Shown here in pieces: positions 21,077 through 43,343 of a stretch of DNA of 64,000 nt. Below the pieces are notes generated by a model. The model saw only the letters and a list, made by a program, of their open reading frames with translations, ran no database searches and was not told where the DNA came from. How positions within the stretch are numbered: the stretch's first letter is position 1; every line of letters begins with the position of its first letter. The stretch is taken from NCBI RefSeq assembly GCF_002095385.1, contig NZ_MIPP01000017.1:1-64000 (forward strand). Reading direction: 5' to 3'. The position numbers were made by a program, and so were the translations under genes. The stretch comes from Pantoea eucrina (GTDB taxonomy: Bacteria > Pseudomonadota > Gammaproteobacteria > Enterobacterales > Enterobacteriaceae).

Positions 21077-21997
21077 TCAGCCTTTGTTCGCTGCCTGCAC
21101 GTGCAGCATATCCAGCGCCAGCGTAGCCGCTGCCAGCGCGGTCAGATCGGCGTGATCGTAACCCGGCGCCACCTCAACCAGATCCATGCCGACAATATTC
21201 ATTCCCTGCAGGCCGCGCACCAGTTTGGTCGCTTTGTCGCTGCTCAGGCCGCCAATCACCGGCGTGCCGGTGCCTGGCGCGTGCGCCGGATCGAGGCAGT
21301 CGATATCAAACGTCAGGTAGACCGGCAGGTCGCCCACGGTGCGCTTCACCTCCGCCAGAATATCATCCACGCTGCGATCGTTAACCTGCGCCGCGTCCAG
21401 CACGTTAAAGCCCAGACTCTTATCATATTCAGTACGAATACCGATCTGTACCGAGTGCTGCGGATCGATCAGCCCCTCTTTTGGCGCAGTGAAAAACATG
21501 GTGCCGTGGTCAAACGTCGGGCCGTTAGAGTAGGTGTCGGTATGCGCATCAAAATGCACCAGCGCCATTTTGCCGAAATGCTTCGCGTGAGCGCGCAGTA
21601 GCGGCAGCGTAATGTAGTGGTCACCGCCAAAGGTCAGCATGCGCTTGCCGCTGGCCAGCAGTTTTTCCGCATGCGCCTGCAGTTTGTCTGAGAGATCCTG
21701 TGAGTCACCAAATGCGTAAACCAGGTCACCGCAGTCCACGACATTCAGGCGCTGACGCAGATCAAACTCCCACGGCCAGCGGCACCCTTCCCACGCCAGA
21801 TTAGTGGAGATCTGACGAATCGCGCCCGGCCCCAGACGGCTGCCCGGACGGCCCGACGTAGCGGCGTCAAACGGCACACCGGTGATCACCCACTCAGCAT
21901 CGCTGTCATACGGCTGGAAGTTGAGCGGAAAACGCATGAAGCCAAAGGCGTTGGAAACCAGGGAGTTGTCATACTGATTGCCCAGGGTGTTGTACAT
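21077..21997 (-). CDS. speB: agmatinase
   Basis: Manganese ureohydrolase that converts agmatine to putrescine and urea, the step after SpeA. It has 306 residues, the E. coli length. The metal motifs are GGDHYITLP near residue 124, HFDAHTDTY near 149 and [16 protein letters not shown] near 227. In E. coli speA lies close upstream; here the two are separated by the 20-kb adhesin locus. Confidence 0.96.
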
Positions 21998-22049
21998 AAT
22001 TCATCCTCTTTACGTCAGGCAGCACCGGCCTGATTACGGGTCAGGTATA

Positions 22050-22092
22050 AAAAAATCCCTTCCGCGTCGTTAAGCCCGACGAGGAAGGGATT
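22050..22092 (-). terminator. terminator of the bap operon
   Basis: On the minus strand, AATCCCTTCC pairs with GGAAGGGATT around an inner CGTCG/CGACG stem, followed by TTTTTTTAT. It lies about 50 bp after the stop of the membrane-fusion gene. Confidence 0.85.
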
Positions 22093-22141
22093 GATGGCGT
22101 GATTATCGCCGGGAATATACTCCCCTGCAATCCTCATCCGC

Positions 22142-23365
22142 TTAGCGCTCGCGCATCGCCTCTTCAGCTTTATTAAACGGCTTGACCAGATAATCCATCA
22201 CGGTTTTCTCTCCGGTTTTGATATCCACCGTGGAGACCATGCCGGGCGTGATAGAAAAGCGCCGGCCCGCTTTGTTCTGCACATAGTCGTTATCGGTGCG
22301 GATAAACACCCGATAGTAGTAGATCTCTGGTTTCACCTCATCCTGGATAGTGTCAGGTGAGATGCTCTCCACTGCGCCGTTGAGGCCGCCATAGATGGCG
22401 TAATCGTAGGCGGAGATCTTCACCACCGCGCGCTGCCCCGGATGAATAAAGGCGATATCGCGCGGCGACAGGCGCGCCTCCACCAGCAGCCGGTCGTTGA
22501 GCGGGACAATGTTCATCAGCTCGCCGTTAGGCGGCACCACGCCACCGACCGTGGAGACTTTAATATTTTTAACGATGCCGCGCATCGGGGCGCGGATCGT
22601 CAGTCGCGTCACCGTATCTTCGCGTCCTTTAATCACTTCAGCGAGGCTGTCCGCTTCCGCGCTCGCTTTGGCCAGCTCTTCACGCGCCTGTACATAATAT
22701 TGCGAACGCATATCGGTCAGCTTCAGCTCCAGATCGGATTTTTCACGCTGCAGGCGCAGCACCTCCACATTGCTGGCAGCCCCGCTCTTTGCCAGCCGCT
22801 GCGTAATCGCCAGCTCGCGGTTAGCCAGCGCCAGCGACGCGTTAAACTGCTTCGTCGCGTCGTTGAGCTGTGCCCGTTTAGTATTATAGAGACGGGTTTC
22901 TGCCGCGATCAGATCGGGCCAGCCGCTGAGCTCATCCGGAAAGGTCAGCCGGGTGTCGTTAACCTCTGCCCGCAGGCGTGACGCCGCCGCCAGCGCGGCG
23001 CGATAGCGTGCCGCGCTCTCACCCACGCTTGACTGGGAACGGGTCGGATCGAGACGCGCCACCACCTCACCCGCCTGCACCTGATCGCCCTCATGCACGT
23101 ACAGCTCCGTCAGAATACCGCCCTCCAGCGACTGCAGCACCTGCTCGCGCGAGCTGGGGATCACCTTGCCGGTCCCGGTTGAGACTTCATCCAGCACGCC
23201 AAACCACGCCCAGATCAGCGCGACCAGCATCAGCGCGGCGCTGATAACAATCAGCCGCACCGCCCCGCTGTAGTGCGTTTCCGATTTCAGTTCGCCCAGC
23301 AGATCGTCTGACGCGTCTGTTTCAGCAGCCGTGACCAGCCGCAGTTTTGCCGGCAGCTGCTTCAT
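22142..23365 (-). CDS. bapD: type I secretion membrane-fusion protein (HlyD family, BapD-like)
   Basis: Periplasmic adaptor that joins the ABC exporter to the outer-membrane channel. The ATG at 23365 overlaps the stop of the ABC gene (ATGA) and gives 407 residues starting MKQLPAKLRL. One membrane helix (VISAALMLVALIWAWFGVL) lies near residues 39-57. It is followed by a biotinyl-lipoyl domain (GGILTELYVHEGDQVQAGEV), a long coiled coil of about residues 110-260, and the second lipoyl half (TIRAPMRGIVKNIKV). An upstream in-frame start at 23530 lies inside the ABC gene and is rejected. It is last in the order bapA-B-C-D known from Salmonella. Confidence 0.9.
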   Translation of the reverse strand: MKQLPAKLRLVTAAETDASDDLLGELKSETHYSGAVRLIVISAALMLVALIWAWFGVLDEVSTGTGKVIPSSREQVLQSLEGGILTELYVHEGDQVQAGEVVARLDPTRSQSSVGESAARYRAALAAASRLRAEVNDTRLTFPDELSGWPDLIAAETRLYNTKRAQLNDATKQFNASLALANRELAITQRLAKSGAASNVEVLRLQREKSDLELKLTDMRSQYYVQAREELAKASAEADSLAEVIKGREDTVTRLTIRAPMRGIVKNIKVSTVGGVVPPNGELMNIVPLNDRLLVEARLSPRDIAFIHPGQRAVVKISAYDYAIYGGLNGAVESISPDTIQDEVKPEIYYYRVFIRTDNDYVQNKAGRRFSITPGMVSTVDIKTGEKTVMDYLVKPFNKAEEAMRER

Positions 23366-25542
23366 GCGTTCACCTCCGGCAGATTTCCGCCGCTGCGCGC
23401 TGGCGGCAGCGCTTTCTCTTTCGGACTGTCCATAACCAGCTGCCCCTCTTTCAGCACCAGGATCCGATCCACCAGCGACAGAATCGCGGCGCGATGCGTC
23501 GCCACGATCAGCGTGCGGCCGTTCAGCCATGCGCCGAGGCGCTCAATAAACTCTTTCTCCGTATGGTCGTCGAGCGCGGCGGTGGGTTCATCCAGCAGCA
23601 CGATATTAGGATCGCGCAGCAGCATGCGCGCCAGCAGCAGCGACTGCCGCTGCCCGCCGGAGAGGCCGGTGCCCCCCTCCATGATCGGGTGATCCAGCCC
23701 CAGCGGCAGGCGGCGAATAAATTCCGCTCCGCCGCTCACCGTCAGCGCAGAGAAGATGGCGTCGTCGGTAGCGTGCGCCGCGCCGAGCGTCAGGTTTTCA
23801 CGCAGCGTACCGTGAAACAGACGCGCGTTTTGCGTCAGCAGCCCGACGTTGCGCCGCACGTCGGCCACGTCAATGTGCGGCAGGCTGAGGTTATCAAGCC
23901 GCAGCTCACCGCTCACCAGATCCATGCCGCCCGCCATCGCCTGCAGCAGCGTGGATTTACCGGAGCCGTTGCGGCCCAGCACCGCAATACGCTCCCCAGG
24001 CTGAATGGTCAGGGATTTGATGCGCAGCGCCATGGTCAGCGAGTCGCTGTAGTAGCGAAACATGGCGTCGGTGAACTGATAGTGGCCAAACAGCACCGGA
24101 CAGTGAATACGCGTCTCATCGCTGCTGTTCTCTACCGGCAGATTCATCAGGCCGTCGAGGCTGGTTTTCGCCGCCCTGACCTGCTGCCAGCGCGCCAGTA
24201 CGCCGCACAGCGTTGCCATCGGCGCAATCATGCGCGAGGAGAGCAGCGACGCCGCGACAATCGCCCCGGTGGTGATATCGCCGTTGATCACCATCGGCGC
24301 GCCCACCACAATGACGCTGGCGTAAACCAGCCCCTGCACCGTTACGCCCCAGCTAATGAGCGAGTGCATCACCTTACGCATCGCCACGCCCGACTGCGCG
24401 GTGATACGGATATAGCTGTTCCACTGCTGCAGAAAGCGATCTTCCGCCTGCATCAGCTTGATATCCTCCAGCCCCTGTACGCTCTCCACCAGCACTGCGT
24501 TACGCAGCGTGGACTCTTTCAGCGCCTGCTGCGCCAGCTTCGCCAGTTTTTTCTGGCTGAGCAGGCCCGGCAACACCATCAGCAGCACCGCCACCGGGGC
24601 GATCCACGCCAGCTGTGGCGCGATAATCGCCATAACCAGCAGAAACAGCAGGAAAAATGGCATATCGACAATCGCCGTCACGGTGGTTGAGGTCACCATT
24701 TCCCGGATCGCCTCCAGTTCACGCAGCTGGGAGATAAAAGTGCCGGTAGAGCGCGGCACCACGCTGTTGCGCAGCCGCAGCGCATGACCAAACACCCGAT
24801 CGGAGACGCGCATATCAGCGCGCTTGCCCAGCAGATCGGTGACGTGATCGCGGCCCACGCGCAGAATATAGGTAAATACCACCGAAATGATCACGCCAGC
24901 ATAGAGGACATAGAGCGTGGGATAAGATTGCGCCGGGATCACCTGGTCATAGACCTGCATCGAAAACACAATTCCTACCAGCGCCAGCAGATTGATCAAG
25001 AAGGACGCCAGCATCACATAGCCGTAGGGACGCAGATCGTGCAGCACCAGCCGCCGCAGCCAGTCGGGGCGAACGGTGGCGAGATAGCGATCGACCCGGC
25101 TATCTTTCGCCGCCGCCACCGGTCGCAGCGCGGCCACCACGCGGAGGGCGGGCAGCAGATCGGTGAGCATCACCGGCGTCGGCTGTTCATCGCCGGAAAA
25201 GTGCACCCGAACGCGGTCATCACCATCAAACGCCGTCACCACGCCGACCTGGCCATCATCCAGCTCTACCGCCAGCGGCAGGCGCCAGCGCGTGATCTCC
25301 TGGCTCTCCTCGGCAAACAGCTGCAGCGACAGCCCCGCCTGACGTGCCAGATGGCGCAGCGCTTTATCGCGCGTCTGTTTGCCCTGCCACTCTGCTGCCG
25401 CCATGATCATGCCCGGCGAACAGGGCAGCCGGTAGTGGGTCGCGATCTGAATAATAGCCGTGGCCCAGCCGTTAAGCGGCAGCTCGCCGCCGCCGCTGGC
25501 GGACTGGCCCTCAGGCGCGTCCGGAATGTGTAATTGGGTCAT
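23362..25542 (-). CDS. bapC: type I secretion ABC exporter with C39-like domain (BapC/LapB-like)
   Basis: Inner-membrane ATPase-permease that powers export of the adjacent adhesin. It has 726 residues. Residues about 20-145 resemble a C39 peptidase fold but lack the catalytic Cys box, so this is a substrate-binding C39-like domain, as in LapB and HlyB. Membrane helices follow from about 165 to 430. The nucleotide-binding domain has Walker A GRNGSGKST, the signature LSGGQRQSLLLARMLL and Walker B IVLLDEPTAALDD. Both ends overlap neighbouring genes by four bases, so bapB, bapC and bapD are translationally coupled. Confidence 0.92.
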   Translation of the reverse strand: MTQLHIPDAPEGQSASGGGELPLNGWATAIIQIATHYRLPCSPGMIMAAAEWQGKQTRDKALRHLARQAGLSLQLFAEESQEITRWRLPLAVELDDGQVGVVTAFDGDDRVRVHFSGDEQPTPVMLTDLLPALRVVAALRPVAAAKDSRVDRYLATVRPDWLRRLVLHDLRPYGYVMLASFLINLLALVGIVFSMQVYDQVIPAQSYPTLYVLYAGVIISVVFTYILRVGRDHVTDLLGKRADMRVSDRVFGHALRLRNSVVPRSTGTFISQLRELEAIREMVTSTTVTAIVDMPFFLLFLLVMAIIAPQLAWIAPVAVLLMVLPGLLSQKKLAKLAQQALKESTLRNAVLVESVQGLEDIKLMQAEDRFLQQWNSYIRITAQSGVAMRKVMHSLISWGVTVQGLVYASVIVVGAPMVINGDITTGAIVAASLLSSRMIAPMATLCGVLARWQQVRAAKTSLDGLMNLPVENSSDETRIHCPVLFGHYQFTDAMFRYYSDSLTMALRIKSLTIQPGERIAVLGRNGSGKSTLLQAMAGGMDLVSGELRLDNLSLPHIDVADVRRNVGLLTQNARLFHGTLRENLTLGAAHATDDAIFSALTVSGGAEFIRRLPLGLDHPIMEGGTGLSGGQRQSLLLARMLLRDPNIVLLDEPTAALDDHTEKEFIERLGAWLNGRTLIVATHRAAILSLVDRILVLKEGQLVMDSPKEKALPPARSGGNLPEVNA

Positions 25543-26990
25543 GGCTGGATCTCCACGGTCTGGATGCGCTGGTTATTGAGCGTAAAGGCTGAACGGATCT
25601 GTCCGGTGCTGTAGAGACAGTCGAGCTGCAGCGATCGCAGCTGGCTTACGGTCTGCTGTAGCGTAAAGCGGGTCTGCCACACCTCCTGTTCGGCATTGAG
25701 TACGTCCAGCAGCGGGCGCGTGCCAAGCTGCAGATACTGATCCTGATAGAGCTGGCGGGTTTTCTCGCCCAGCGCCTGCTGGCGCCCCATGATCGCCAGA
25801 CTCTGCGACAGGCTGAGCGCCTCATTCTGCGACTCGCTCAGCTGCTGGCGCGCCTTCAGCCGTGCGGAATTTACCGCTGCGTTTGCCGCCTGCAGCGCGC
25901 TGGCGGCAGCGTCGCGCGCGGCGGTGATCCCGCCGCCCTGATAAAGCGGCATCTCGACTTTGACAAAGGCAGAGTACTGCGTGCGGTCCAGCGACTGACT
26001 GCCGGCGTAGCGATCGTTGAGATAGTGGGTAACCTGCGGTTCCAGCGAGATAGTCGGCAGGTTCTGCGCACTGGCATTATCAAGTTTGGCCTGCGCCTGA
26101 TTAGCCTGCGCCCACGCGGCCAGTACCGCCGGGTTGGTTTTGTCATCCGCTTTGCCACTGGCGCAGCCGCGGGTCAGCGTTGCGGGAAACTGGTCGCTGA
26201 CCTGCTTTACCAGCGGCCAGCCCAGATAGGTGGCTAAGGTTGCGCGCCAGCGGTTAAGGCTCGCCTGATACTGCGTCAGGGTGGTGCGCGCGCCTTCAAT
26301 ACGCGCATCGGTCTGGGTCGCGTCGGAGAGCGAGGCGGCGCCCTCCTCATTACGCTGCCGCGCCAGTACGCCAATCCGGCTCAGGGCGCTGAGCTGATCG
26401 CGGGCAATCTTTACCAGCTGCTGATAGCCCTGCACCTGAACCAGTGCCGCTGCGGTATCGTGCGCCACGCTATCGATACTCACCAGCACGTTTGCCTGCT
26501 CCTGCGCCACGCCCGCCTCGGCAGAGCGCACCGAACTGCTGACTTTGCCAAAGTCATAAAGCATCTGCGACACCGACAGCACAAATGAGGGGGTGAAGCC
26601 GCTGCCGCTGTAACTGTTGCTATAGCCATTGTTCATGCCCGCACTGATTTGCGGATAATATTTTGCTTTTGCCACATCGACCTGATTCGCCTGCTCCAGC
26701 ATGGTGCCGATCGCCTGCGCGATATCAGGATGCCACTGCACCGCACGCTGCACCGCCTGCTCAATTGTCAGGGTGTCCGGCACGCGGCTTAGCGCCGGTT
26801 CGGCGACTTCACCGGCGAGCGACGGCAGCTCCTGCTGCTGAACCAGCTCGCTTTGCGTAATAGATCCAGCGCGTATCAGCGTCTCACTGGCGGCACTAAG
26901 ATGCGCACTGTAAAACAACAGAAAGCCCGCGCTTACTACGGCGGGCAGAGAGGAACGGCGAAAAGGTGCGCCGGATTGCATCAGATCCAT
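25539..26990 (-). CDS. bapB: TolC-family outer-membrane channel (BapB/LapE-like)
   Basis: A 483-residue outer-membrane efflux protein forming the exit duct of the secretion system. A hydrophobic stretch (SAGFLLFYSAHLSAAS) within the first 35 residues is a signal peptide. Two OEP repeats contain long helices, with text such as VLVSIDSVAHDTAAALVQVQ and LYQDQYLQLGTRPLLDVLNA, the conserved TolC-family strand entry. It starts 71 bp after the adhesin stop, behind a small hairpin, and overlaps bapC by four bases. A second ATG four codons in is an alternative start. Confidence 0.9.
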   Translation of the reverse strand: MDLMQSGAPFRRSSLPAVVSAGFLLFYSAHLSAASETLIRAGSITQSELVQQQELPSLAGEVAEPALSRVPDTLTIEQAVQRAVQWHPDIAQAIGTMLEQANQVDVAKAKYYPQISAGMNNGYSNSYSGSGFTPSFVLSVSQMLYDFGKVSSSVRSAEAGVAQEQANVLVSIDSVAHDTAAALVQVQGYQQLVKIARDQLSALSRIGVLARQRNEEGAASLSDATQTDARIEGARTTLTQYQASLNRWRATLATYLGWPLVKQVSDQFPATLTRGCASGKADDKTNPAVLAAWAQANQAQAKLDNASAQNLPTISLEPQVTHYLNDRYAGSQSLDRTQYSAFVKVEMPLYQGGGITAARDAAASALQAANAAVNSARLKARQQLSESQNEALSLSQSLAIMGRQQALGEKTRQLYQDQYLQLGTRPLLDVLNAEQEVWQTRFTLQQTVSQLRSLQLDCLYSTGQIRSAFTLNNQRIQTVEIQP

Positions 26991-27015
26991 CGATTATCCA
27001 CCAGTCAGAATAGAG

Positions 27016-27035
27016 AAAGGGCACCTCCTGTGCCC
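27016..27035 (-). terminator. possible attenuator between bapA and bapB
   Basis: GGGCAC-N5-GTGCCC is a six-pair hairpin in the 71-bp gap after the bapA stop. On the minus strand TTTCTCTATTCT follows, an imperfect T-run. It could partly stop transcription, so that exporter genes are expressed below the adhesin. This is an inference from the structure. Confidence 0.4.
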
Positions 27036-27061
27036 GTGATGCTTCCCTGCGTCACACACCA

Positions 27062-30000
27062 CTATGCCGTGTGGTTTTGGTGCGGTTGCTGCAGCAGCTC
27101 CTCCAGTGACACGTTAACGCCTTCCAGCGTGATCAGCTGCGTAGTGCTGTAGCCCGTCCCGCTACCGTCACGATCGATTGAAAGCACGGTGCTGCCATCA
27201 GAAGTATGGTCCACTTTCACGAAATCATTAATATTACTTGTGGAATCATTCCAGCCGATCAGCAGTTCACTGATATCAATCTTGTCTCCCTGGGCGACGT
27301 TAAAGTCGGTCCAGGTGTCGTGGCCGTTGCCGCCGGTGGCGTCAGCGCGATCCAGCAGATGGTAAACCAGCGTATCTGCGCCGGCGCCAGCGGTGATGGT
27401 GTCATCGTAGGCGCTGCTGGTCAGCGTATCGTTACCGCCGGTTCCGTTAATGGTCGGGTGCAGCTCAATGGTGAAGCTGTGGCTGGTCAGGGTGCCGTCC
27501 CGGCCCGCCAGGGTGTAACTGAATACCTCCTTATGCGTAATGTTCTGGACGTTAACATCCGCATTGAGTGAGTAGGTGTAGCTTCCGCTGGCGCTGACCT
27601 GCAGCACGCCGAACTCACCGGCTACCTGCGTCATACCGGCCGCTCCCACCGTGGTTTCCGCCCCCAGAGCATTAGTGATGGTTAAGGTTCCGCTGTGCGT
27701 GCCGGCGCTGTCAGCCCAGATGCTGCCGCTCGCGTCATGCTCAGCGCTGCTGCTTTCCGCCAGCAGACTGGTGGCGGCAAACAGCGTGGCCGCCGGGCCG
27801 TTATGCAGCGTTACCGTCAGCGTGGCGGAGGTTACCGTGCCGCTGGCGTCCCGCACTGAATAGGTAAAGGTATCCGTCGCCGGCAGCGTGTCGATATTCA
27901 GTCCCGCTTTCAGCGCATAGGTATAGTTGCCTCGCGCATCCAGGGTCAGCGTACCGTAGCTGCTGTTGATCACCGTATTACCCGTGCCGGCAACCGTTGC
28001 GCCGCCCGCCGTTGTAACCGCCACACCGGCCGGTACCGTACCGGCTATCGAACTGGTGTCGTTCGCCAGCAGATTACCGGTGACGGTGGCCGCCGTGGTC
28101 ACCGCCAGCGTGGTGAAGTCTGACACCGTGCTGATGGTGGTGGTGGGCAGGATGCCCACACTCACGTTGGAACCAATCACTACCGCATAGTTACCGGTGC
28201 CCAGGTTGCTGTAGGTCACGTTGGCCCCGGTCTGGGTGCCCAGAGAAATCAACCCGGTGGAGAGATAGTTACCCCGCGTATTGATCAACTGCCAGCTGCC
28301 ATTCGCCTGCTGTTCATACAGGTAGAGGGAGTAGGTTGAGATCAGGCTGATACCGCCCACCGAACCATTGAGCGTAACGGTGCGGGTATCATCCGGCCCT
28401 ACGCTGAAGACAAAGGCGTTGCCGCTGGAGAGCACGCTGGCATTCAGCACACTTCCCAGTCCGATGTTCGCCAGCGCAATATGGGAGACGCTGGTAGTGC
28501 CATTGCTGATAGTCGCCTGCGTGGTGGTGTAATCCACCTCGTTGCTGTCGTTGGTTGCGACTACGCGAATCGCCCCGAGTACGGAAGCGCCAGCAGAGAC
28601 GTTGCCCGCGCGATCTGTCTGCACCACTGACAGAGCAGCGCCGGTGATTTGCGGCGAGGTCAGCGTAATGCTGAAGCTGCCGCTGGCCTGCACCACACCG
28701 CTACCGATAGCGTTACCGCTGGCATCGCGTACCGTGACAGTAGCATTAGCCTCACCGGTGCCGGTTAAGGTGGTGCCGGCTGCGTTAACCTGCAGCCCAC
28801 CCACTGCTGCTGGCGGTACGGTATCGACGTTCACCGTTGCGGTGGTGTTACCGGTGCTGACGTTACCCGCCGCATCGGTCACAGTGGTACTTAAGGTGTG
28901 CGCCCCGTTCGTCAGCGCGGCAGGAGTAAAGGTCCAGGTCCCTCCGCTGCCGACGCTGACTGAGCCAATCGCCGTCGCGCCATCAAAGATGGTGACAATA
29001 GCTCCCGCTTCTGCCGTACCGCTCAGCACTGGCGTGGTGTCACGGGTGAACGCACCGTTTGCCAGCGTAACCGGTGTGGTGCCAGCATCGTCAGTGATAG
29101 TGAGCGTACTTGCCACGGGTGCCACGTTATCCACCACCAGCGTGGTGGATACCTGCGGGCTGACGTTGCCTGCCGCATCAGTCTGCGTCACGCTCAGCGT
29201 ATGACTTCCATTGCTAAGCGTACCAGTGATGAAGCTCCAGGTACCGTTCGTACCGACCGTGGTGCTGCCCAGCACTTGCGTCCCTTCGTACACGGTAATG
29301 CGGGCGCCTGACTCACCGTTCCCGGAGAGCAGCGGCGTACTGTCGCTGGTAAAGCCGTTGTTGGGAATAGTGACAGCGGTAATGCCGTTGTTGTTGAACG
29401 CCGTCAGATTGGTCACGGCCGCTGGAGCGATGGTGTCAATCACCACTGTCGCCGCCGTGCTGCCGCTGACATTACCTGCTAAATCCGTAACGGTCACCGT
29501 AAGCGGATGCGAGCCATTATTCAGCGGCGTCAGCGGCGTGAAGCTCCAGCTGCCGTCCGTCTGTACAATCGCCGTGCCCAGTAGCTGACCATTATCCTGA
29601 ATACTCACGCGCGCCCCGGCTTCTGCTGCGGCTACCGTACCGCGCAGCGTTGGCGTAGTGTCGTTAGTAGAACCTCCGTTCGCCACTGTCGCCCCGGTAA
29701 CATCATTAATGATGGTCAGGGTGGAATTGACTGGCGCTACGGTATCCACCGTCACGTTAATCGCATCTGAACGCGGCCCGACGTTACCAGCGCTGTCCGT
29801 AACGGTGACGCTCAGCGCATGCGCACTGTTGCTCAGGGTGGGTGAGATAAAGCTCCACGCGCCCTGGGCGTTTGCAATCGCCGTACCCAGCACCGTGTTG
29901 CCGTCGTACACCGTTACCCTGCCGTTCGCCTCTGCCGTGCCGTTCAGCGTCGGCGTGTTGTCATTGGTGATACCGCTGTTAGCGACCGGCGCTCCCGTCA

Positions 30001-36000: not shown

Positions 36001-39000
36001 AGCTCCAGCGGCCATCGTTACCGACCACCGCGCTACCCAGCGTGTTGTTGCCGTCGCTAATGGTGACCGTACTGCCAGGTTCGGCGCGTCCGCTAACTAC
36101 CGGCGTGGTGTCATTGGTCACGCCGTTATTGATCGCGACTGGCGTGCCGCTCCGATCGTTGCTGAACACCACATCGCTGGCAACGGTCGGCGGCGTGGTA
36201 TCAATGGTCACCACCAGCGGCGAGGATGCCGGGCCGGTATTACCGGCAGGATCGGTTACGGTGGTGGTCAGGCTGTGATCGCCTTCGTCCAGCGCATTGT
36301 CCGGCGTAAAGCTCCAGTTGCCGTCGCTATCGGCAATCGCCGTTCCCAGCTCATTAGTGCCATCTGAAACGGTGATGGTGCTGCCTGACTCAGCGGTGCC
36401 GCTCAGCACCGGCTGCGTGACGTTGGTTACGCCACCGGAAGTAATCGCATCGCCATCGCCGTTGCTCAGCTGCAAGCCACCGGCTGCCGCCGGCGGCGCG
36501 GTATCAACAATCACCACCACTGGCGCAGATGGCGTGCTGATGTTGCCTGCCGCGTCACTTTGCGTCGTGGTCAGGCTGTGGTTACCCTCGCTCAGCGCTG
36601 GCAGAGTGAAGCGCCAGTTGCCGGTATCATCCACCGTGACGCTGCCCAGCGGCGTGCTGCCATCAGAAACAGTCACAACACTGCCCGCTTCCCCGCTGCC
36701 GCTTAATACCGGCGTGCGGGTATTGGTGGTTTCACCCGGCGGGATTTCTGCGCCCGCTCCGTTTTCCAGCACCAGGCCACCCGGTGCGCCCGGCGCAACG
36801 GTATCAATGGTGATGGTGAGGGTATTACTTTCCACCACGGTTCCGGCGCTATCGGTGTAGGTGGCGCGGAAGGCATAGGTGTTATCCAGCAGCGGATTCG
36901 GGGTAAAGCTCCAGAGGCCATCACTGCCCGCAATGACGCTGCCAATTTCAACGTTTCCATTAAACAGCGTGACCAGCACACCCGCTTCAGCACGGCCGCT
37001 GAGCACCGGCGTGGTGTCCTGCGTGCTGTCGTTATTCGCCAGTACCACCAGCGTACTGCCGTTGTTATCAGCCACCACCAGCAGTTCATTGGTCGGCGGG
37101 ATGCCTGCATCCACCGTCAGGTTAAAGGCTGGCGAGGCCGGGCCAACGTTACCGGCAGCATCGGTGACAGTAGTGGTGAGCGAATGCGCACCGTTGGTCA
37201 GCGCAGCCGGGGTAAAGCTCCAGCTGCCGTCGTCACCTGCCGTTACTGTTCCCAGTAACGTACTGCCATCGTAGATGCTGATGACCGAACCGGCTTCTGC
37301 GGTGCCGCTTAGTGCCGGAGTACTGTCAGCCGTGGTGGCACCGCTGCTCAGCGGAACACCCGTGCCGCTGCTGTCATCGCTGACCAGCAGGTCGCTGATA
37401 ACAGCAGGTGCAGTAGTATCAACGGTGAAGTTCAGCGCCGGCGTGGCCGGGCTGGCGTTGCCTGCGGCATCGGTGACCACCGTACTCAGGCTGTGACTGC
37501 CATCAGCCAGGGTGGGCAGCATAAAACTCCAGCCACCGCTGGCGCCCACGGCCACGCTACCCAGCACCGTGGTGCCATCCAGAATAGTCACAACGCTGCC
37601 CGCTTCCGCCTGACCGCTAAACATCGGCGTGCTGTCATTGGTGGCGATGCCGTCGGTAATGGGTACCACCGTACTGCCCGCGTCATTGCTCAGCGTCAGC
37701 TCGCTGGCTGCTGGCGGCGCCACGGTGTCGAGCGTGATGGAGAGCGCGGCGCTTTCAATGGTATTGCCGTTACCATCGTCAAAGGTAGCACGGAAGGTAT
37801 GCACGCCATCCTGCAGACTCAGCACCCGGTAGCTCCACTGACCATTAGCATCTGCGGTTACTGAGCCCAGTACTGTCGCACCGTCATACAATGTCACGAT
37901 GCTGTTTGCGCCAGCAAGACCGGTCAGCAGCGGCGTGCCATCGTTGGTTATATCGCCGTTGTTCAATCGCTCCAGCACGTTGCCGCTCTCGTCATACACT
38001 TCCAGTGACAGAGAAGCCTGCGGTGCGCCCGCGTTAATGGTCAGGGTAAAGTCTGGTGTCGCCGGACCCACATTACCTGCCACATCGGTGACTGTAACGG
38101 TAAGCGTGTGCAGACCATCACTTAGCGCTGGCGTAGTGAAGCTCCAGCTGCCGTTACTGTTTACGGCCACAATGCCCAGCAGTACATCTCCGTCATACAC
38201 ACTGACCTGACCGTCAGGCTCTGCTGTACCGCTAAGGGTCGGGGTGCGATCGTCAGTGGTATCACCGGAGATTAATGCGCCCTGCTGAGCGCCCACGTCG
38301 TCGCTGACCAGCAAATCAGCGATCGCTGCTGGCGGTACGGTATCGACGATGATGTTTATTGCAGGCGAGGCCGGCCCGGTATTGCCTGCGGCGTCAGTTA
38401 CGGTAGTAGTGAGACTATGCGCGCCTTCTGTCAGCTCAGGCGTGGTGAAACGCCAGCTGCCATCGGCATTAACCGCTGCCGAACCCAATACCATATCGCC
38501 ATCACTGATGGTCACTACGCTGCCAGGTTCTGCCGTTCCGCTGAGCAGCGGCGCGTTGTCATTGACGTTACCGTTTGCTGCGATCGGCACCTGCAGGCCA
38601 TTGCTTTCACTACTGACGATAAGATCTGCCGCGGCGGCTGGGGGAGTAGTATCAATAGTAAAAGTAACCGGCGCCGAGGCCGGGCCGCTGTTGCCAGCAG
38701 CGTCGGTGGCCGTGGCTGTCAGGCTGTGGTTTCCTTCAGTCAGCTCTGGCGTGGTGAAGCTCCAGCTGCCGTCTGCATTCACCGTGGCGCTACCCAGCAC
38801 CGTGTCATTATCGCGCACGATAATGATGCTGTCCGGTTCCGCGCGGCCGCTTAAAACCGGCGTCGTATCATTAGTCGCGGCCCCTGCAACAACCGGCACA
38901 GCGGTTTCGCCTTCATCATTGACCAGCTGCAGACTATCTGGTGCGGCAGGACCCGCAGTATCGATAGTGATAGCAATCGCTGGCGTTTGCGACACCTCGC

Positions 39001-41686
39001 CATTGTTGTTGATGATGCCGTAGAAACTGTGCGGACCATCATCCAAAGTACCCACCTGATAAACCCACTGTCCGTCTGCATCGGCGGTGACGCTGCCCAG
39101 CTCGGTCGTTCCGTCGAAGAGCGTAACGATGCTGCCCGGCGCCACAACGCCGCTCAGAACTGGCGTGTTATCGCGCGTGCTCGCGCCATCAGCCAGAGTA
39201 ACCAGCGTATTGCCCGAGTCGTCGGTGACCTGCAGCTCGCTGGTGGCCGGTGGCAGAGCAGCATTAACCGTAAAGTTAACGGCTGAAGACGCTTCGCTAC
39301 GGTTGCCCGCTGCATCTGTGACGAAGGCGGTCAGGCTGTGTGCCCCGTTGCTCAGCGCCGGAGTGGTAAAGTTCCAGCTGCCCTCTGCGTTTACTGCCGC
39401 GCTGCCCAGCAGAGTTCCGCCATCGTAGATCTGTACAACGCTACCGGGTTCCGCCTGGCCGCTCAGCTCTGGCGAGCGGTCATCGGTGATTGACCCGCCC
39501 GCTACCGGGCCGGTTTCATCACCGACACTGTCGGTCAGCACCAGCTGCGAGGCGGCCGCTGGCGCAATGGTGTCCACTGCAAACTCAATCGGCTCAGAGG
39601 CCGGACCGGTATTGCCCGCCGTATCGGTCACGGTAGTGGTCAGGCTGTGATCGCCTTCTTCCAGCGTCGGCACCGCAAAGCTCCAGCTGCCATCACTGCC
39701 TGCGGTGACGCTGCCGATAGCAGTTTCGCCATCATAGATAGTCACTGTACTGCCAGGTTCCGCGCTGCCGCTTAGCATCGGTGAAGTATTATTGGTCGCG
39801 CCACCGCTGGCGATCGGTTGCGGCGTGCTGCCGCTGTTGTTAATCAGCTGCACATCACCTGCAACAGCAGGCGGTGTGGTATCAATGCCAAATTCAATCG
39901 GCGATGAAGCCGGGCCGGCATTACCGGCGGCATCTGTCACCACGGTGGTCAGGCTGTGATCGCCCTCACCCAGCGCTGGCGTAGTGAAACTCCACTCACC
40001 GTTGCTGCCCACGGTCACCGTGCCGAGTACCGTATCACCATCGAGAATGGTCACTGTGCTGCCGGGTTCCGCTGTGCCATTCAGGGTTGGTGTAGTGGTA
40101 TTGGTCACTCCACCGGAAGGAACGGGTTCAGCTGTCGTTCCGGTTCCATCTGAAAGGTTCAAATTGCCCGCGCTGGCAGGGGGTATAGTATCAATGATGA
40201 GCGTGATGGTTGGGGTTTGCGTCACGTTACCGCTGGCATCCGAGACGGTGGCTGAGAACGCGTAGCTGCCATCAACCAGTGAGCCCGGCGTAAAGCGCCA
40301 CTGCCCATCCACATCCGCGACTACACTGCCTATTGGCGTTGTGCCGTTATACAGTGTGACAAGGCTGCCTGGCGTAGTTACGCCGGTGAGCGCGGGTGTC
40401 GAATCAGACGTGCTGGCACCGTTTGCCAGCAATACCGGGGTTGCGCCGCTATCATCGTAGATTTCCAGCGCGGTAGTGGCAGGCGGCAAAACAGCCTGCA
40501 CAATAATGTCGAAAGAAGCAGACAGTGCGCTAACGTTGCCAGCCGCATCGGTCAGCGTGACGGTAAAGCTGTGGCTGCCAATAGCCAGCTCTGGTGTCGT
40601 AAAACTCCAGCTGCCATTTGCACCGACGACGGTGGTACCCAGCAGCGTCTGCCCGTCATAGACAGTCACGATGGCGTCCGCCTCGCCGCGACCGTTTAAT
40701 ACCGGCGTCCTGTCATCAGTAGCGGAACCGTCGGGAATAGGTGTCGGGGTACCGCTATTATCTGTAAGCGTCAGCTCCGTGGCGGCGGCTGGTGGTTGCG
40801 TATCCACGGTAAACGTAATGCTACTGCTAACCGGGCTGCTATTACCCGCAGCATCCGTGGCCGTGACGCTCAGGCTATGCTGACCTTCGCCCAGCGGTGA
40901 GGTGGTGAAACTCCAGCTGCCATTTGCGTCTGCCGTTGTGCTGCCAATCAGCGTCGTGCCATCGTAAATGCGGATAATTGCACCCGCTTCGGCGGTGCCG
41001 CTCAAGGTTGGCGTATTATCTGCGGTTGCCGTACCGTTAGTAATAACTCCCTGCTGATTGCCGGCATTGCTGATAAGCTGCAGACCGGTAGCCGCAGCCG
41101 GTGGCGTGGTATCACCGCCGCCGTTATTACCGCCTCCTCCGCCAGGATTGTTGCCCCCGTTACCAGGGGTAGTGCCGCCGCCGTTATTGCCACCTCCCCC
41201 GCCAGGATTGTTGCCTCCGTTACCAGGATTAGTGCCGCCGCCGGAATTATCCGTATCGCCACCGCCACCGCCGCCACCGCCGCCGGTCGCAAACAGCGCC
41301 CCGATACCGGCCAGAGCCGCGCCGCCAATACCGAATGCGGCAATCGTGCCGTTATCCGTTACGTTTTCTGCCAGCAGACCTTCAGTGCTGTCGATCGACA
41401 CATACTGAAAGCCCTCTGTGCCGGGATCTTCAACCCACCAGAGCGCACCGCGATCGTCCTGCAGGACCAGATCGCTGTCGCCATTGGCGCTGTAAAAATC
41501 ATGAATAACAAGTGTTTCACCTGATTTAGTGGTTACGACTAAATCATTACCATTGCGTGTGAAAGCCTTAATGTCAGCCTGATTCAGGTTAAGTTTAACC
41601 ACACTGGGTGCGTTCAGCGTAACCTGAGTACCGCTCACTTCGTTAGCAATCGTCCCACCTTTGGGCGTGATAGAAATATTGTTCAT
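27062..41686 (-). CDS. bapA: giant BapA-like repeat adhesin secreted by type I system
   Basis: A 4874-residue surface protein expected to mediate cell aggregation and biofilm formation. Residues about 1-115 match the BapA prefix-like domain (MNNISITPKGGTIANEVSG; FYSANGDSDLVLQDDRGALW). A hydrophobic Ala/Gly segment (about 118-138) and a Gly/Asn-rich linker to about 195 follow. Reading by eye gives 40 full Ig-like repeats of about 100 residues, each with TPxLSGxAExG near its start and HSLTVTVTDAAGN near its end, plus a shorter degenerate 41st. The tail holds two VCBS/cadherin-like domains and a type I secretion target region (GTGGNDTLTSSAYDDTITAGAGADTL, cited in part) ending LLQQPHQNHTA. The frame is open throughout. 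I noticed no cysteine. The ATG at 41686 follows GGGATCCCGATAAC. The repeats make local assembly collapse possible. Confidence 0.93.
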   Translation of the reverse strand: MNNISITPKGGTIANEVSGTQVTLNAPSVVKLNLNQADIKAFTRNGNDLVVTTKSGETLVIHDFYSANGDSDLVLQDDRGALWWVEDPGTEGFQYVSIDSTEGLLAENVTDNGTIAAFGIGGAALAGIGALFATGGGGGGGGGDTDNSGGGTNPGNGGNNPGGGGGNNGGGTTPGNGGNNPGGGGGNNGGGDTTPPAAATGLQLISNAGNQQGVITNGTATADNTPTLSGTAEAGAIIRIYDGTTLIGSTTADANGSWSFTTSPLGEGQHSLSVTATDAAGNSSPVSSSITFTVDTQPPAAATELTLTDNSGTPTPIPDGSATDDRTPVLNGRGEADAIVTVYDGQTLLGTTVVGANGSWSFTTPELAIGSHSFTVTLTDAAGNVSALSASFDIIVQAVLPPATTALEIYDDSGATPVLLANGASTSDSTPALTGVTTPGSLVTLYNGTTPIGSVVADVDGQWRFTPGSLVDGSYAFSATVSDASGNVTQTPTITLIIDTIPPASAGNLNLSDGTGTTAEPVPSGGVTNTTTPTLNGTAEPGSTVTILDGDTVLGTVTVGSNGEWSFTTPALGEGDHSLTTVVTDAAGNAGPASSPIEFGIDTTPPAVAGDVQLINNSGSTPQPIASGGATNNTSPMLSGSAEPGSTVTIYDGETAIGSVTAGSDGSWSFAVPTLEEGDHSLTTTVTDTAGNTGPASEPIEFAVDTIAPAAASQLVLTDSVGDETGPVAGGSITDDRSPELSGQAEPGSVVQIYDGGTLLGSAAVNAEGSWNFTTPALSNGAHSLTAFVTDAAGNRSEASSAVNFTVNAALPPATSELQVTDDSGNTLVTLADGASTRDNTPVLSGVVAPGSIVTLFDGTTELGSVTADADGQWVYQVGTLDDGPHSFYGIINNNGEVSQTPAIAITIDTAGPAAPDSLQLVNDEGETAVPVVAGAATNDTTPVLSGRAEPDSIIIVRDNDTVLGSATVNADGSWSFTTPELTEGNHSLTATATDAAGNSGPASAPVTFTIDTTPPAAAADLIVSSESNGLQVPIAANGNVNDNAPLLSGTAEPGSVVTISDGDMVLGSAAVNADGSWRFTTPELTEGAHSLTTTVTDAAGNTGPASPAINIIVDTVPPAAIADLLVSDDVGAQQGALISGDTTDDRTPTLSGTAEPDGQVSVYDGDVLLGIVAVNSNGSWSFTTPALSDGLHTLTVTVTDVAGNVGPATPDFTLTINAGAPQASLSLEVYDESGNVLERLNNGDITNDGTPLLTGLAGANSIVTLYDGATVLGSVTADANGQWSYRVLSLQDGVHTFRATFDDGNGNTIESAALSITLDTVAPPAASELTLSNDAGSTVVPITDGIATNDSTPMFSGQAEAGSVVTILDGTTVLGSVAVGASGGWSFMLPTLADGSHSLSTVVTDAAGNASPATPALNFTVDTTAPAVISDLLVSDDSSGTGVPLSSGATTADSTPALSGTAEAGSVISIYDGSTLLGTVTAGDDGSWSFTPAALTNGAHSLTTTVTDAAGNVGPASPAFNLTVDAGIPPTNELLVVADNNGSTLVVLANNDSTQDTTPVLSGRAEAGVLVTLFNGNVEIGSVIAGSDGLWSFTPNPLLDNTYAFRATYTDSAGTVVESNTLTITIDTVAPGAPGGLVLENGAGAEIPPGETTNTRTPVLSGSGEAGSVVTVSDGSTPLGSVTVDDTGNWRFTLPALSEGNHSLTTTQSDAAGNISTPSAPVVVIVDTAPPAAAGGLQLSNGDGDAITSGGVTNVTQPVLSGTAESGSTITVSDGTNELGTAIADSDGNWSFTPDNALDEGDHSLTTTVTDPAGNTGPASSPLVVTIDTTPPTVASDVVFSNDRSGTPVAINNGVTNDTTPVVSGRAEPGSTVTISDGNNTLGSAVVGNDGRWSFTSPVLSPGEHNLVVTVTDAAGNSSEPSAALPINIDVTPPDAPTGITLVNDNGTTPVPIAAGGFTNDSTPAIGGSAAAGSTVTVFDGTTELGTVSVGDDGIWTFTPPNALSEGSHSLSATVTSPAGNTSPPSGPVVVNIDLTAPAVADDLQLTNDNGTAPLPINGVTNDVTPQFSGSAEPGSSVAIYDNDELLGTARTDADGRWTFTPDPALEAGAHSLTTVVTDAAGNSGPASTAINFTIDLTTPPAAGGVELISNNGTANQPVTSGDATNDTTPVLSGSAAEGSTVTILDGNTVLGTVLVDSSGAWTFPIPVLSQGDHSLTTTVTSPAGNVSEPSAAIDFTVDTEAPAEPAGLQLSNDEADPAIPVAAGGATNDTTPVLSGSAEPNSLVIVRDNGVVIGSATAGADGSWSVTPETALDAGPHSLTASVTDPAGNVGPESAPYNFTIDLTAPDAPLNVALSNNEGSALVAIPSGGSTNDATPELTGTATAGSIITIYDGDSTTPLGTVTVGADGSWLFVTGELSDGPHSLSVTETDAAGNVSERSEPITFTVDTDAPDAAAGLQLVNNDADPATPIASGSSTSDNTPLLSGTAEANSTIIVYDGQTPIGTATADEEGAWSYSPILTDGQHNLSVTVTDAAGNVSEPSNIIAFNVDTVAPSAVTELSIANNSGSGEPVIIPNGGLTNDSTPLFSGAGDPGSVIVIASQNGELGTVTVGDSGRWSFTPQNPLTDGNYTLTVTARDAAGNLSAPVAAQLTIDATPPAQAADLTLSNDNGTTTVPIISGSTTSDNTPLLAGTAEPGSRVNILDNGVPIGTAIASDAGEWSFSVPTLTNAGHSLTVTVTDAAGNTGPATAPLTFTVDSQAPAQATLVVTNDNGAEPVTVPDGTFTNDNTPLLSGEAEPASLVIIYDGDVVLGSTIATAGGTWSFSSPALTDGEHTLTATVTDALGNVSAPSSSFTLQVDATPPQPVSGLLVQNDNDADNPATIASGGATNDNTPLLSGRGEPGTTVSVYDNNALVGSATVGNDGSWSLNTNPLPNGSYNLSVIVSDAAGNSSEPVNVSLTINTIAPDPVLTFDIYDNNGSAPELVSNNGFTNDSTPVLRGTAAAGALVTLLQGDTVIGSAQADASGVWRFETGALDDGTYAFSVQVVDAAGNVSVPTGPVTINIDTVAPAPVAGFTVTDNVGGTTGELNSGDPTDDNTPTLSGTAEAGSTVSIYDGTVLLGTATAGAGGSWTFTTEALSNRVHTFTVTVTDAAGNVSAPSAPFDVNVQADLPPATSSLQITDNSGTTPVTLTDNAVTKDNTPTLSGAANPGEIIRIYNAVDETEIASVTTNASGQWSYTPTLTDGTYSWYVTAEDPGNDAGPRSDIIGITVDTVAPVAVADLVVSNDSSGTAQPIAAGSVINDSTPVLTGSTEPGGIVTIYDGNIAIGSAVASGGGDWTFSAPILSQGQHALSVSVTDAAGNIGPRTLAFSFTVDTVAPNASTLVITNDQTAQPVPGGGVSSDSTPTLSGTAEAGSTIAITNNGAPLTTLTVPPGGTWSYTPATALSEGAHTINVTVTDAAGNVSAATSATVNIDTVAPDAVTITASNNNGSVPVAIAAGGLTSDNTPRLSGTAEAGSLVIVSENGAPVGSVIAAADGNWGFTTNTLPDGQHTFSVVARDAAGNASTPATFTLTVDATPPAIATNVVVQNDVTGVNIPAGGATNDATPTLRGSAEANTTVSVYDGNTLLGTATVDGNGGWIFASPTLANGAHSLSVAVTDAAGNIGSRTAPVTVIVDTVAPVASTLVVTNDGNGAAIPNGGVTNDTTPTLSGRAEANSTITLRNGDTLLGTAIADATGNWTFTPGTALGEGMVTLNVAVTDAAGNVSGTTSSSVMIDVTPPPAVTALTAANNNGSTPVNIAASGVTNDNTPRLSGTAEANSVVTIRDGDTILGSVTAGSNGSWSFVTSVRPDGLHTFNVAATDAAGNTGPNAAITLTIDTIAPLAATGLRLTNDVTGAPVANSGITNDNTPTLNGTAEANGRVTVYDGNTVLGTAIANAQGAWSFISPTLSNSAHALSVTVTDSAGNVGPRSDAINVTVDTVAPVNSTLTIINDVTGATVANGGSTNDTTPTLRGTVAAAEAGARVSIQDNGQLLGTAIVQTDGSWSFTPLTPLNNGSHPLTVTVTDLAGNVSGSTAATVVIDTIAPAAVTNLTAFNNNGITAVTIPNNGFTSDSTPLLSGNGESGARITVYEGTQVLGSTTVGTNGTWSFITGTLSNGSHTLSVTQTDAAGNVSPQVSTTLVVDNVAPVASTLTITDDAGTTPVTLANGAFTRDTTPVLSGTAEAGAIVTIFDGATAIGSVSVGSGGTWTFTPAALTNGAHTLSTTVTDAAGNVSTGNTTATVNVDTVPPAAVGGLQVNAAGTTLTGTGEANATVTVRDASGNAIGSGVVQASGSFSITLTSPQITGAALSVVQTDRAGNVSAGASVLGAIRVVATNDSNEVDYTTTQATISNGTTSVSHIALANIGLGSVLNASVLSSGNAFVFSVGPDDTRTVTLNGSVGGISLISTYSLYLYEQQANGSWQLINTRGNYLSTGLISLGTQTGANVTYSNLGTGNYAVVIGSNVSVGILPTTTISTVSDFTTLAVTTAATVTGNLLANDTSSIAGTVPAGVAVTTAGGATVAGTGNTVINSSYGTLTLDARGNYTYALKAGLNIDTLPATDTFTYSVRDASGTVTSATLTVTLHNGPAATLFAATSLLAESSSAEHDASGSIWADSAGTHSGTLTITNALGAETTVGAAGMTQVAGEFGVLQVSASGSYTYSLNADVNVQNITHKEVFSYTLAGRDGTLTSHSFTIELHPTINGTGGNDTLTSSAYDDTITAGAGADTLVYHLLDRADATGGNGHDTWTDFNVAQGDKIDISELLIGWNDSTSNINDFVKVDHTSDGSTVLSIDRDGSGTGYSTTQLITLEGVNVSLEELLQQPHQNHTA
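41113..41285 (-). repeat. Gly/Asn-rich linker with tandem 60-bp unit inside bapA
   Basis: The linker between the N-terminal domain and the first Ig repeat contains a 20-residue unit (GGGTxPGNGGNNPGGGGGNN) present twice in near-perfect tandem, after a run of nine glycines and a short Asp-Thr-Asp-Asn-Ser stretch. At the DNA level the two 60-bp copies differ at only a few third positions. Such tandem DNA can expand or contract by slippage without losing the frame. Confidence 0.8.
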
Positions 41687-41990
41687 GTTATCGGGATCCC
41701 GCGCAGATATAAGTTTATGAGCGTTACTGGCACGCCCGGTATCATCAGATACCGCTTGCTATCGCAAGTAATTCAGTGAATTACTTACATCCTTCATCGG
41801 CCGTTCTTATTCCGGTAAAAGAGTAAGAACAGCGCTGAACAGGTTTAATTGCGGATTCAGAAAGGACATCAGGCGTTATGCGGAATACAGAAGCGTGATT
41901 CAGAAGTGAATATAAGCGCAGCAGGCACGCTTACCTTTTCAGCTGAAATGACTTTCTGCGCAGACCATAATCGCAAAGCTGTGTGCTGAA
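41687..41990. other. bapA upstream region
   Basis: About 304 bases between the EAL-domain gene and bapA, both on the minus strand. It must hold the bapA promoter unless the two genes share a transcript. It contains four inverted repeats (41738-41830) but no terminator with a T-run that I can see after the EAL gene. I could not fix a promoter. Confidence 0.5.
41738..41830 (-). promoter_or_regulatory. cluster of four inverted repeats in the bapA leader
   Basis: In order: GGTATC-N4-GATACC (41738-41753); CTTGC-TATC-GCAAG (41755-41768); a 21-base perfect palindrome with arms AAGTAATTCA and TGAATTACTT around one G (41766-41786); and GTTCTTA-N14-TAAGAAC (41803-41830). They lie 52-144 bp before the bapA start. 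The 21-base palindrome has the form of a dimeric regulator operator. The others could be operators or hairpins in the 5' untranslated RNA. Confidence 0.6.
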
Positions 41991-42680
41991 TTACGCAAAT
42001 AAATCATCAAGATAAACACTCTGCCAGTGGTAACCCTGCATGCCATAAACGGGCTTATGCGCAAGCAGATCCACATAGTGCTGATTTTCAACCCCCTCAA
42101 CAATGACGCCGCGGCATAATTGATTAAGGTGATTAAGCAGAATGTCAAAGGTGCGGTCTTCGCTGAATTGCCAGAAAAACGCTTTATCAATCTTGACGAT
42201 CTCAAATATTCCGCTGTCAAGCATGGTCAGGCTTGAATAACCCGGACCAAAATTGTCGAGCCAGAGAGGAGCCGGCGTAATTTTCGCTACGCCTTTAAGG
42301 GTCAGCAGATCCTCACTATTAAAACGCGAGGTGAAAAATGCAGAGATTTCCAGCCGCAATAATGCAACAGACGCCAGTTTTTCCTGAATGACTTCGTCTG
42401 CAAATATGCCGGCAACAATATCTCTGTCTACGTTTACGCTGATAACCTGGTTAAGCCCCTGCTGACTAAGCTGAATAATATTTTCGACCTGGTGAAGGAA
42501 TAGCTGCCATTTCTCATCGGCAGAAAGCAGAGAGAAAAAATGCTCTTCTCTGTCGGGATTGCGTTGTGTAGTTGTCGCTTTTTTTTCTTTAAAACGTGTC
42601 AGCAGCTCCCATGAAGTCACCTCTCCGGTCAGACTATGAACGGGTTCCAGCAAGAAAACCGGATTAAAACGCTCGGTCAT
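41991..42680 (-). CDS. degenerate EAL-domain protein, possible c-di-GMP regulator
   Basis: A 229-residue stand-alone EAL domain with no other domain and no membrane segment. The EAL motif reads WELLTR near residue 24. The Asn of SVNVD, the Glu of RLEIS, the Lys of VKIDKAF, the Glu of IVEGVEN and the Gln of GMQGYHWQ are kept. The usual DDFGTG loop reads LDNFGPG, so one of the two metal-binding Asp residues is Asn. Phosphodiesterase activity is therefore doubtful, and a YdiV-like protein-binding role is possible. The ATG at 42680 follows AGGAAGGGTGCC. It lies directly upstream of bapA on the same strand, which suggests but does not prove a role in adhesin control. Confidence 0.82.
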   Translation of the reverse strand: MTERFNPVFLLEPVHSLTGEVTSWELLTRFKEKKATTTQRNPDREEHFFSLLSADEKWQLFLHQVENIIQLSQQGLNQVISVNVDRDIVAGIFADEVIQEKLASVALLRLEISAFFTSRFNSEDLLTLKGVAKITPAPLWLDNFGPGYSSLTMLDSGIFEIVKIDKAFFWQFSEDRTFDILLNHLNQLCRGVIVEGVENQHYVDLLAHKPVYGMQGYHWQSVYLDDLFA

Positions 42681-42860
42681 GGCACCCTTCCTGAAGACGC
42701 TGCTGATAAGACTCTAAAGATCAGACTTATTCATGTTATCTTAAATCGAAACATCGACAAAAATTACTATAACAACTGGAGATTAGCCTGCAATTTACAT
42801 TTTGAAAAATAGTTTTCAGCTAAAAATGGCCCTGAAATGATAGCTAAAACCAATCATTTT

Positions 42861-42890
42861 TTGACAACCATTCCGGTAATATTCTATAAC
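42861..42890 (+). promoter_or_regulatory. orphan sigma70-type promoter
   Basis: TTGACA (perfect -35) is followed 18 bases later by TATAAC (five of six). It points to the right into about 450 bases with no plus-strand gene. The transcript would run against the 3' end of speA. In an AT-rich region a chance match is possible. Confidence 0.4.
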
Positions 42891-43327: not shown

Positions 43328-43343
43328 GATACGTTATTACTGA

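Follow-up and report, generated by a model that had tools for sequence, protein, structure and literature searches.

The window analysed here comprises 64,000 nucleotides (contig positions 1-64000) of contig NZ_MIPP01000017.1 from a Pantoea eucrina genome (G000; 3.89 Mb in 108 contigs). Its minus strand carries, in this order, speA, a gene for an EAL-domain protein, bapA, bapB, bapC, bapD and speB (Table 1; G and L numbers denote genomes and loci). Very probably, the block between speA and speB is a complete locus for a secreted adhesin of the Salmonella BapA type, accompanied by an EAL protein that would regulate motility or cyclic di-GMP (c-di-GMP), and was gained at this site early in Pantoea. 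The genes bapB and bapC share four bases (ATGA) at 25539-25542, as do bapC and bapD at 23362-23365, while bapA and bapB are spaced by 71 bp. The start of bapD was corrected to 23365, since the start in the list of open reading frames (ORFs), 23530, lies 165 bases too early. Coordinates and family models thus bear out an earlier note on this DNA, which had described speA-EAL-bapABCD-speB on one strand in Salmonella bapABCD order with four-base overlaps, two of which are present, and an adhesin of 4874 residues, encoded by one uninterrupted bapA frame.

Table 1. Features of the speA-speB region in the window.
Feature	Coordinates	Strand	Family models and remarks
speA, arginine decarboxylase, right-hand flank	43344..45323	-	TIGR01273, NF003763
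AT-rich intergenic stretch, GC 0.376	42681..43343	-	terminator-like site 43327-43314 after speA
EAL-domain protein, 229 aa, STM1697/YdiV-like	41991..42680	-	PF00563
EAL-bapA intergenic region, 304 bp	41687..41990	-	presumed bapA promoter, by position only
bapA, 4874-aa adhesin	27062..41686	-	PF22783, PF19077 x40, TIGR01965, TIGR03661
bapB, TolC-family outer-membrane channel	25539..26990	-	TIGR01844, PF02321
bapC, LssB-type type I secretion ABC transporter	23362..25542	-	TIGR03375 760.6 bits, cut-off 693.1
bapD, HlyD-family periplasmic adaptor	22142..23365	-	TIGR01843; ATGA overlap
speB leader: promoter-like elements, then terminator-like hairpin 22054-22092	22049..22130	-
speB, agmatinase, left-hand flank	21077..21997	-	TIGR01230, NF002564

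BapA consists of a prefix domain (residues 1-113), a Gly-rich hydrophobic linker, about 40 immunoglobulin (Ig)-like repeats, a VCBS region and a C-terminal target for the type I secretion system (T1SS). The N-terminal domain matches the prefix models PF22783 (120.5 bits, cut-off 27) and NF033677 (68.4, cut-off 35), the repeat array is recognised by PF19077 (Big_13) in 40 stretches, and the C-terminus by TIGR03661 (T1SS_VCA0849; 67.9, cut-off 17.6). The models for BapB, BapC and BapD (TIGR01844, TIGR03375 and TIGR01843) all exceed their cut-offs, with the genes in the order B-C-D. The closest named relative of BapC is found in P. eucrina strain Russ (99%). BapC would act as the inner-membrane ATP-binding cassette (ABC) pump which, together with BapD as periplasmic adaptor and BapB as a channel of its own in the outer membrane, exports BapA via the C-terminal signal. 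The approximately 40 repeats may form a long fibre by which cells stick to surfaces or to each other, and a role in biofilm formation or clumping is suggested by analogy with Salmonella. Retention at the surface would probably be achieved by the N-terminal prefix and the Gly-rich segment, lodged in the dedicated BapB channel, and the LapD/LapG switch would have no part in it.

Occurrence at the speA-speB site and the linked EAL gene

For an even draw of 60 Pantoea genomes, speA, speB and BapA_N, a model that matches none of 14 controls, were placed and tabulated. bapA is present at the speA-speB site in 34 genomes: in 31 it lies between both genes on the same contig, including a decayed copy with a stop codon in G040, and in three it lies beside speA on split contigs (G007, G010, G034). 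BapC was found for all 34, though partial in two. Among the 26 genomes without bapA at the site, 19 show a speA-speB gap of 161-177 bp, and G055 has the same compact look with a broken speA (20 compact genomes if it is counted); G005 and G008 contain 15.5-16 kb of other genes, the gap of G023 measures 776 bp, G039 is rearranged, and G014 and G051 have no speA or speB match. The family was sampled with about one genome per genus (149 genomes, 98 matched by speA and 94 used; G096, G166, G090 and G108, fragmentary or very divergent, were dropped from the gap table). Usable speA and speB were present in 84 of these genomes, in 82 on one contig, and the gap did not exceed 700 bp in 65 of them, measured 700-5000 bp in another 12 and was longer than 5000 bp in the remaining five. 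Within this draw, only the window's genome has bapA inside the gap. Because 34 of 60 Pantoea genomes carry bapA there, but only the window's genome in the family draw, the locus represents an insertion at the level of the genus, in a gap that is otherwise compact, and its placement is unusual for the family and usual for many Pantoea. Many Pantoea genomes thus share the BapA-type adhesin as an old trait with conserved synteny; a limited literature search, which is not proof of absence, retrieved no study of a Pantoea BapA or bapABCD locus.

These counts agree with the earlier note that the block is inserted relative to the usual arrangement, with speA and speB within 700 bp of each other in 65 of 82 family genomes. 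Its rating as probably the most distinctive accessory feature of the window does not hold up, as 34 of 60 genus genomes share it. The note had also named two patterns that would speak against it, and both are seen in part: the same block occurs in the same place in many Pantoea relatives but not in the other genera of the family draw, and clean speB-speA adjacency occurs in the 19 (with G055, 20) compact Pantoea genomes, while the 34 carry bapA. The flanking order corresponds to E. coli tkt-loiP-speB...speA-metK, and the four flanking genes scanned encode a transketolase, an M48 peptidase, an S-adenosylmethionine (SAM) synthetase and a sugar transporter. The statement that speB and speA are neighbours in E. 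coli needs a small correction: in E. coli SCU-111, a gene for a 243-aa hypothetical protein, lipoprotein-like by eye, separates them.

The EAL gene accompanies bapA in 31 of the 34 genomes, with fragments in G013 and G058 and none recognised in G010; among the 31 it is split in G017, interrupted by unknown bases in G022 and contains a stop in G040. The 26 genomes without bapA at the site contain no full orthologue at E 1e-20; a relative with 32% identity is present elsewhere in G008, and a fragment of 83 residues in G014. STM1697 is the top match of the protein in the PDB by sequence (E 2.8e-18), and also by fold (5hxg; template modelling (TM) scores 0.80/0.87), followed by YdiV, for a model with a predicted local distance difference test (pLDDT) score of 85.6. 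In 5hxg, STM1697 was solved in complex with FlhD. By analogy with STM1697 and YdiV, the EAL protein encoded beside bapA most likely adjusts the switch between motile and attached states, either by binding FlhD or by binding or cleaving c-di-GMP. If the link is functional, it offers a testable coupling of a giant adhesin to a motility switch in a bacterium without LapG.

Judged by the catalytic positions of RocR and its kin, the window's protein keeps E25, N83, E111, D142, K163, E195, E198 and Q215, and the second D of the DDFG motif is replaced by N143. The catalytic set is hence incomplete at one of nine checked positions. Residues were compared in 27 readable copies; a motif filter had missed seven genomes, of which G007, G026, G028 and G047 were then recovered. 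DDFG is present in 22 copies, DNFG in three (the window, G048 and G036), DHFG in G054 and DGFG in G020. Copies of clade 1 (see below) keep both D residues and contain VQGV, IQGV or VQGI in place of VEGV. The description of the EAL protein as degenerate is therefore supported by N143, but only one of the nine positions is changed and most orthologues keep the usual residue.

The GC content of the EAL gene is 0.454, compared with 0.60-0.63 for bapABCD, and together with both flanking gaps (41687-43343) it forms an AT-rich region (GC 0.38-0.46). As this region adjoins the GC-rich bapABCD genes, a different origin for the EAL gene is conceivable. In G178, which belongs to another genus, a 37% identical EAL gene is located about 0.4 kb upstream of a bapA that itself lies about 255 kb from speA, indicating that the EAL-bapA link does not merely reflect the insertion site in Pantoea. 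A bolder proposal, which we regard as tentative and rather doubtful, is a five-gene module in which the STM1697-like protein is a dedicated partner that travels with bapABCD (31 of 34 Pantoea loci and the G178 locus) and, during BapA production, turns off flagella or senses c-di-GMP, as an alternative to LapD/LapG; the catalytic changes in several branches would then mark repeated conversions of an enzyme into a binding partner.

History of the locus

An RpoB tree of 57 genus genomes and E. coli (quick method, with Shimodaira-Hasegawa-like approximate likelihood ratio test (SH-aLRT) support only; rpoB of G008, G013 and G033 omitted) contains three main clades, with clades 2 and 3 grouped together (96). 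Clade 1 (putative labels septica, piersonii, latae and deserta) and clade 3 (putative labels eucrina, wallisii, rodasii and kin) carry bap, while clade 2 has the compact speA-speB gap or other genes without bap. Within clade 3, rpoB of G048 and of the window's genome differ at 2.4% of bases. A BapC tree, from which G040 and G018 with partial BapC were omitted, recovers three groups at 100/100 each, namely clade 1, the eucrina group and that of G029. BapC and RpoB distances are correlated (Mantel r 0.74, n = 29), with none of 2000 permutations as high; this test omits G040, G018, G001, G013 and G033, the last two because their rpoB was not in the data set. A congruent history in the genus, which the earlier note had set as a check, is thus observed as broad congruence. 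The EAL-bapABCD block would have entered the speA-speB gap early in Pantoea and stayed in two clades, the third having lost it or never gained it, and an early gain followed by loss in clade 2 is the preferred reading.

Several observations count against this reading, in both its historical and its functional parts. The bap-free G023 branches near the base of the RpoB tree beside E. coli, at an unresolved fork, and an early gain may therefore need a further loss. Furthermore, clade 1 is nested within clade 3 in the BapC tree, although support for this is modest (83/81). Both results favour a second history, less probable than the preferred one but still to be reckoned with, in which bap was gained once in clade 3 and later moved to clade 1 by exchange at speA-speB, clade 2 never having had it. 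The clade 2 gap of 161-177 bp resembles the usual state of the family, and the speA of G010, 91% identical to the window's and outside the range of its clade, also counts toward transfer. On the other hand, a BapC tree in which clade 3 is held together as a constraint is not rejected (approximately unbiased test, p-AU 0.238). Identity to the window's speA is 92-93% in clade 1 (85% in G040), 91-93% in clade 2 and 96-99% in clade 3 except G010; clade 1 is thus similar to clade 2, indicating that the speA flank did not travel with bap.

On the functional side, several Pantoea genomes have retained bapA but lost or disrupted the EAL gene, and it is missing upstream of bapA, within about 3 kb, in all 20 other-genus loci examined (local profile, E 0.01; of 22 other-genus genomes with a stronger BapA_N match, 20 were read upstream, G178 separately and G101 not). 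The EAL protein is thus not required for export. The structure model of the BapA prefix, confident over about residues 1-105, has an unconvincing best PDB match (E 0.13), and a sequence search against the PDB yields nothing below E 0.6, so that the proposed mode of retention is argued from analogy. Secretion, the biofilm role and FlhD binding are likewise predicted from sequence and from related systems.

That the block is a recently acquired genomic island private to the window's lineage is very unlikely. The short speA-speB gap of most family genomes, the GC of the EAL gene against 0.577 for the window, and a Pantoea-group BapC away from speB in Serratia sp. M24T3 would agree with such an origin, but the sharing of the site by bapA in Pantoea clades distant from each other and the congruence of BapC and RpoB distances do not. 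As the earlier note had stated, mobility signals are absent from the edges: the window contains no tRNA or transfer-messenger RNA (tmRNA), no integrase is encoded by the four flanking genes scanned (other short window ORFs were not scanned for integrases), and the longest direct match between the edges is a 10-base A/T run, within chance (mean 7.6, maximum 13 in 200 shuffles). The Serratia locus (L122) suggests an exception to vertical descent by transfer between families. Its BapC is placed inside the Pantoea group and is 88% identical to the window's protein, its bapC DNA shows distances of 0.18-0.23 to nine Pantoea, and its rpoB lies 0.13-0.14 from the same nine, farther than E. coli rpoB from that of the window's genome (0.126); speB is absent from the L122 flank.

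A LapA-like adhesin whose release depends on the LapD/LapG protease switch is hardly credible: the giant T1SS adhesin, its own TolC-like channel and the adjoining c-di-GMP-family protein would fit, but LapG (PF06035) has no match in the window's genome, with one of 14 controls (Caulobacter) matching, LapD_MoxY_N stays below its cut-off (21.2 versus 25 bits), and [TAP]AA[GV], presumably the LapG-type cleavage motif, is absent from BapA 1-300. LapD/LapG control of BapA was ruled out by the lack of a LapG match in the genome.

The speB leader and other genes at the site

Downstream of bapD, a promoter-like pair (TTGCAG at 22130-22125, a 17-nt spacer and GATAAT at 22107-22102), seen by eye and absent from the promoter scan list, precedes the hairpin with its T-run, which folds with -31.6 kcal/mol over a 66-nt stretch (z -6.58). 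The earlier note had taken it for a strong terminator that ends the exporter genes. The hairpin is real, but it also lies upstream of speB in relatives without bap: it precedes speB in bap genomes, in Pantoea with an empty site (G032, G002, G025), in G023, in E. coli and in G145, G091, G135 and G070. Because its presence ahead of speB extends to bap-free genomes and to E. coli, the hairpin is an old speB leader element, which bapD transcripts may also meet, and not an operon end that arrived with bap. It is a possible attenuator or tiny RNA.

Among 59 loci that include the start of speB, several of which share a genome, 49 matched the hairpin pattern, representing 38 distinct sequences. Of the ten misses, L001 extends no more than about 100 bases upstream, the hairpin is displaced by an insert in L044, with similar inserts in L052, L056 and L057, it is altered in L053 and L051 and lacking in L259 (G149), and L109 and L118 were not inspected. 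The inserts in L044, L052, L056 and L057 measure about 100-130 bp, lie between the hairpin or bapD side and speB, end in near-palindromic sequence and resemble a small dispersed repeat. In an alignment of 20 of the 38 sequences, two of 14 predicted pairs show changes on both sides. The inner stem is near-invariant and the loop well kept across several genera (window, L247, L069, L258, L260-L262); neither in the window nor in the E. coli stretch does the element have an Rfam match. The ykkC-III RNA is known in possible speB leaders (PMC2864571). It is not reported by RNA-family scans of window positions 21500-43600, where nothing comes near a gathering score, or of the E. coli speA-speB stretch, which has sub-threshold matches only (best P31, on the speA side and other strand, 29.1 of 40 bits). 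A limited search by title or abstract, not proof of absence, found no literature on the E. coli speB hairpin.

Other predicted signals of the region are weak. The terminator-like site after speA folds hardly better than shuffles (z -1.32), and two sigma-70-like sites in 41500-43500 are no excess over a shuffle mean of 4.1. A hairpin between bapA and bapB (27019-27035) is no more stable than shuffles (z -0.84), and no attenuator role is claimed for it.

In 10 bap genomes, the speA-speB interval extends to 36-49 kb. bapD is located 14-25 kb from speB in seven of the ten (G052, G004, G022, G049, G017, G018, G056) and also in G044 and G034 (split contigs), while in G031 and G038 the 18 kb adjoining speB contain no bapD. 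By Pfam, the extra DNA of G004 encodes two Capsule_synth proteins, Poly_export, an ABC-2 transporter and SIS; G010 has a Capsule_synth gene on the speB side, G044 contains sugar-nucleotide-type genes recognised by eye, and the ORFs of the bap-free G005 and G008 resemble those of G004, again by eye. Where read, the extra DNA between bapD and speB in L053-L061, L064, L066 and L106-L108 contains capsule or polysaccharide genes. In other genera, a GGDEF gene (G070, L262) and an autotransporter gene (G091, L260) lie between speA and speB. The speA-speB interval is thus a site of recurring surface-structure genes, with adhesin and polysaccharide genes in Pantoea and an autotransporter in another genus; no literature on it as an insertion site was found in a limited search, which is not proof of absence. 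Of the 26 genomes that lack bapA at the site, 21 have a more distant BapA_N gene elsewhere. In the two that were read, G032 and G011 (L249-L252), this gene lies close to rcsD and an ompC-like gene (by eye) and has its own exporter, with a BapC about 41% identical to that of the window.

Comparison with known systems

The locus shares a giant T1SS adhesin with a dedicated exporter with Pseudomonas LapA and Salmonella SiiE. Unlike the LapA system, it is found in a genome without a LapG match, and in contrast to SiiE, no SiiA/SiiB-like gene is named in the block, the remainder of the genome not having been searched for one. The bap loci of Enterobacter, Buttiauxella, Citrobacter, Cedecea and others have the same bapBCD order, and their BapC is 64-68% identical in L134-L189. 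Their surroundings differ: the flanks examined in 59 other loci (L131-L189) contain no speB except for a 41% relative in L177. An smpB-like gene is found directly upstream of bapA in 9 of 20 other-genus loci (by eye), and tmRNA no farther than 100 bp from bapD in 5 of 40 loci (28 of 80 named loci plus 12 others) and also after bapD in G124.

The closest parallel is bapABCD of Salmonella enterica, located at Salmonella pathogenicity island 9 (SPI-9), which likewise combines BapA family models, Ig-like repeats and a C-terminal T1SS signal in a biofilm adhesin; expression of BapA with its exporter led to surface filaments and more biofilm (PMC5583245). Both loci have the order bapA-B-C-D, as the Salmonella operon name tells, the Salmonella proteins not having been compared directly. 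With 4874 residues, the adhesin described here exceeds Salmonella BapA, which comprises 3824 aa. The Pantoea locus occupies speA-speB instead of SPI-9, a site that members of the family need not share, and an EAL gene adjoins it. In S. Kentucky, tmRNA marks the boundary of an island next to SPI-9 (PMC5047448).

Like STM1697 and YdiV of Salmonella, the EAL protein is a compact single EAL domain. STM1344 and STM1697 are reported to have mutated active-site residues and no c-di-GMP binding (PMC10100727), whereas the Pantoea protein keeps most of its active-site residues.

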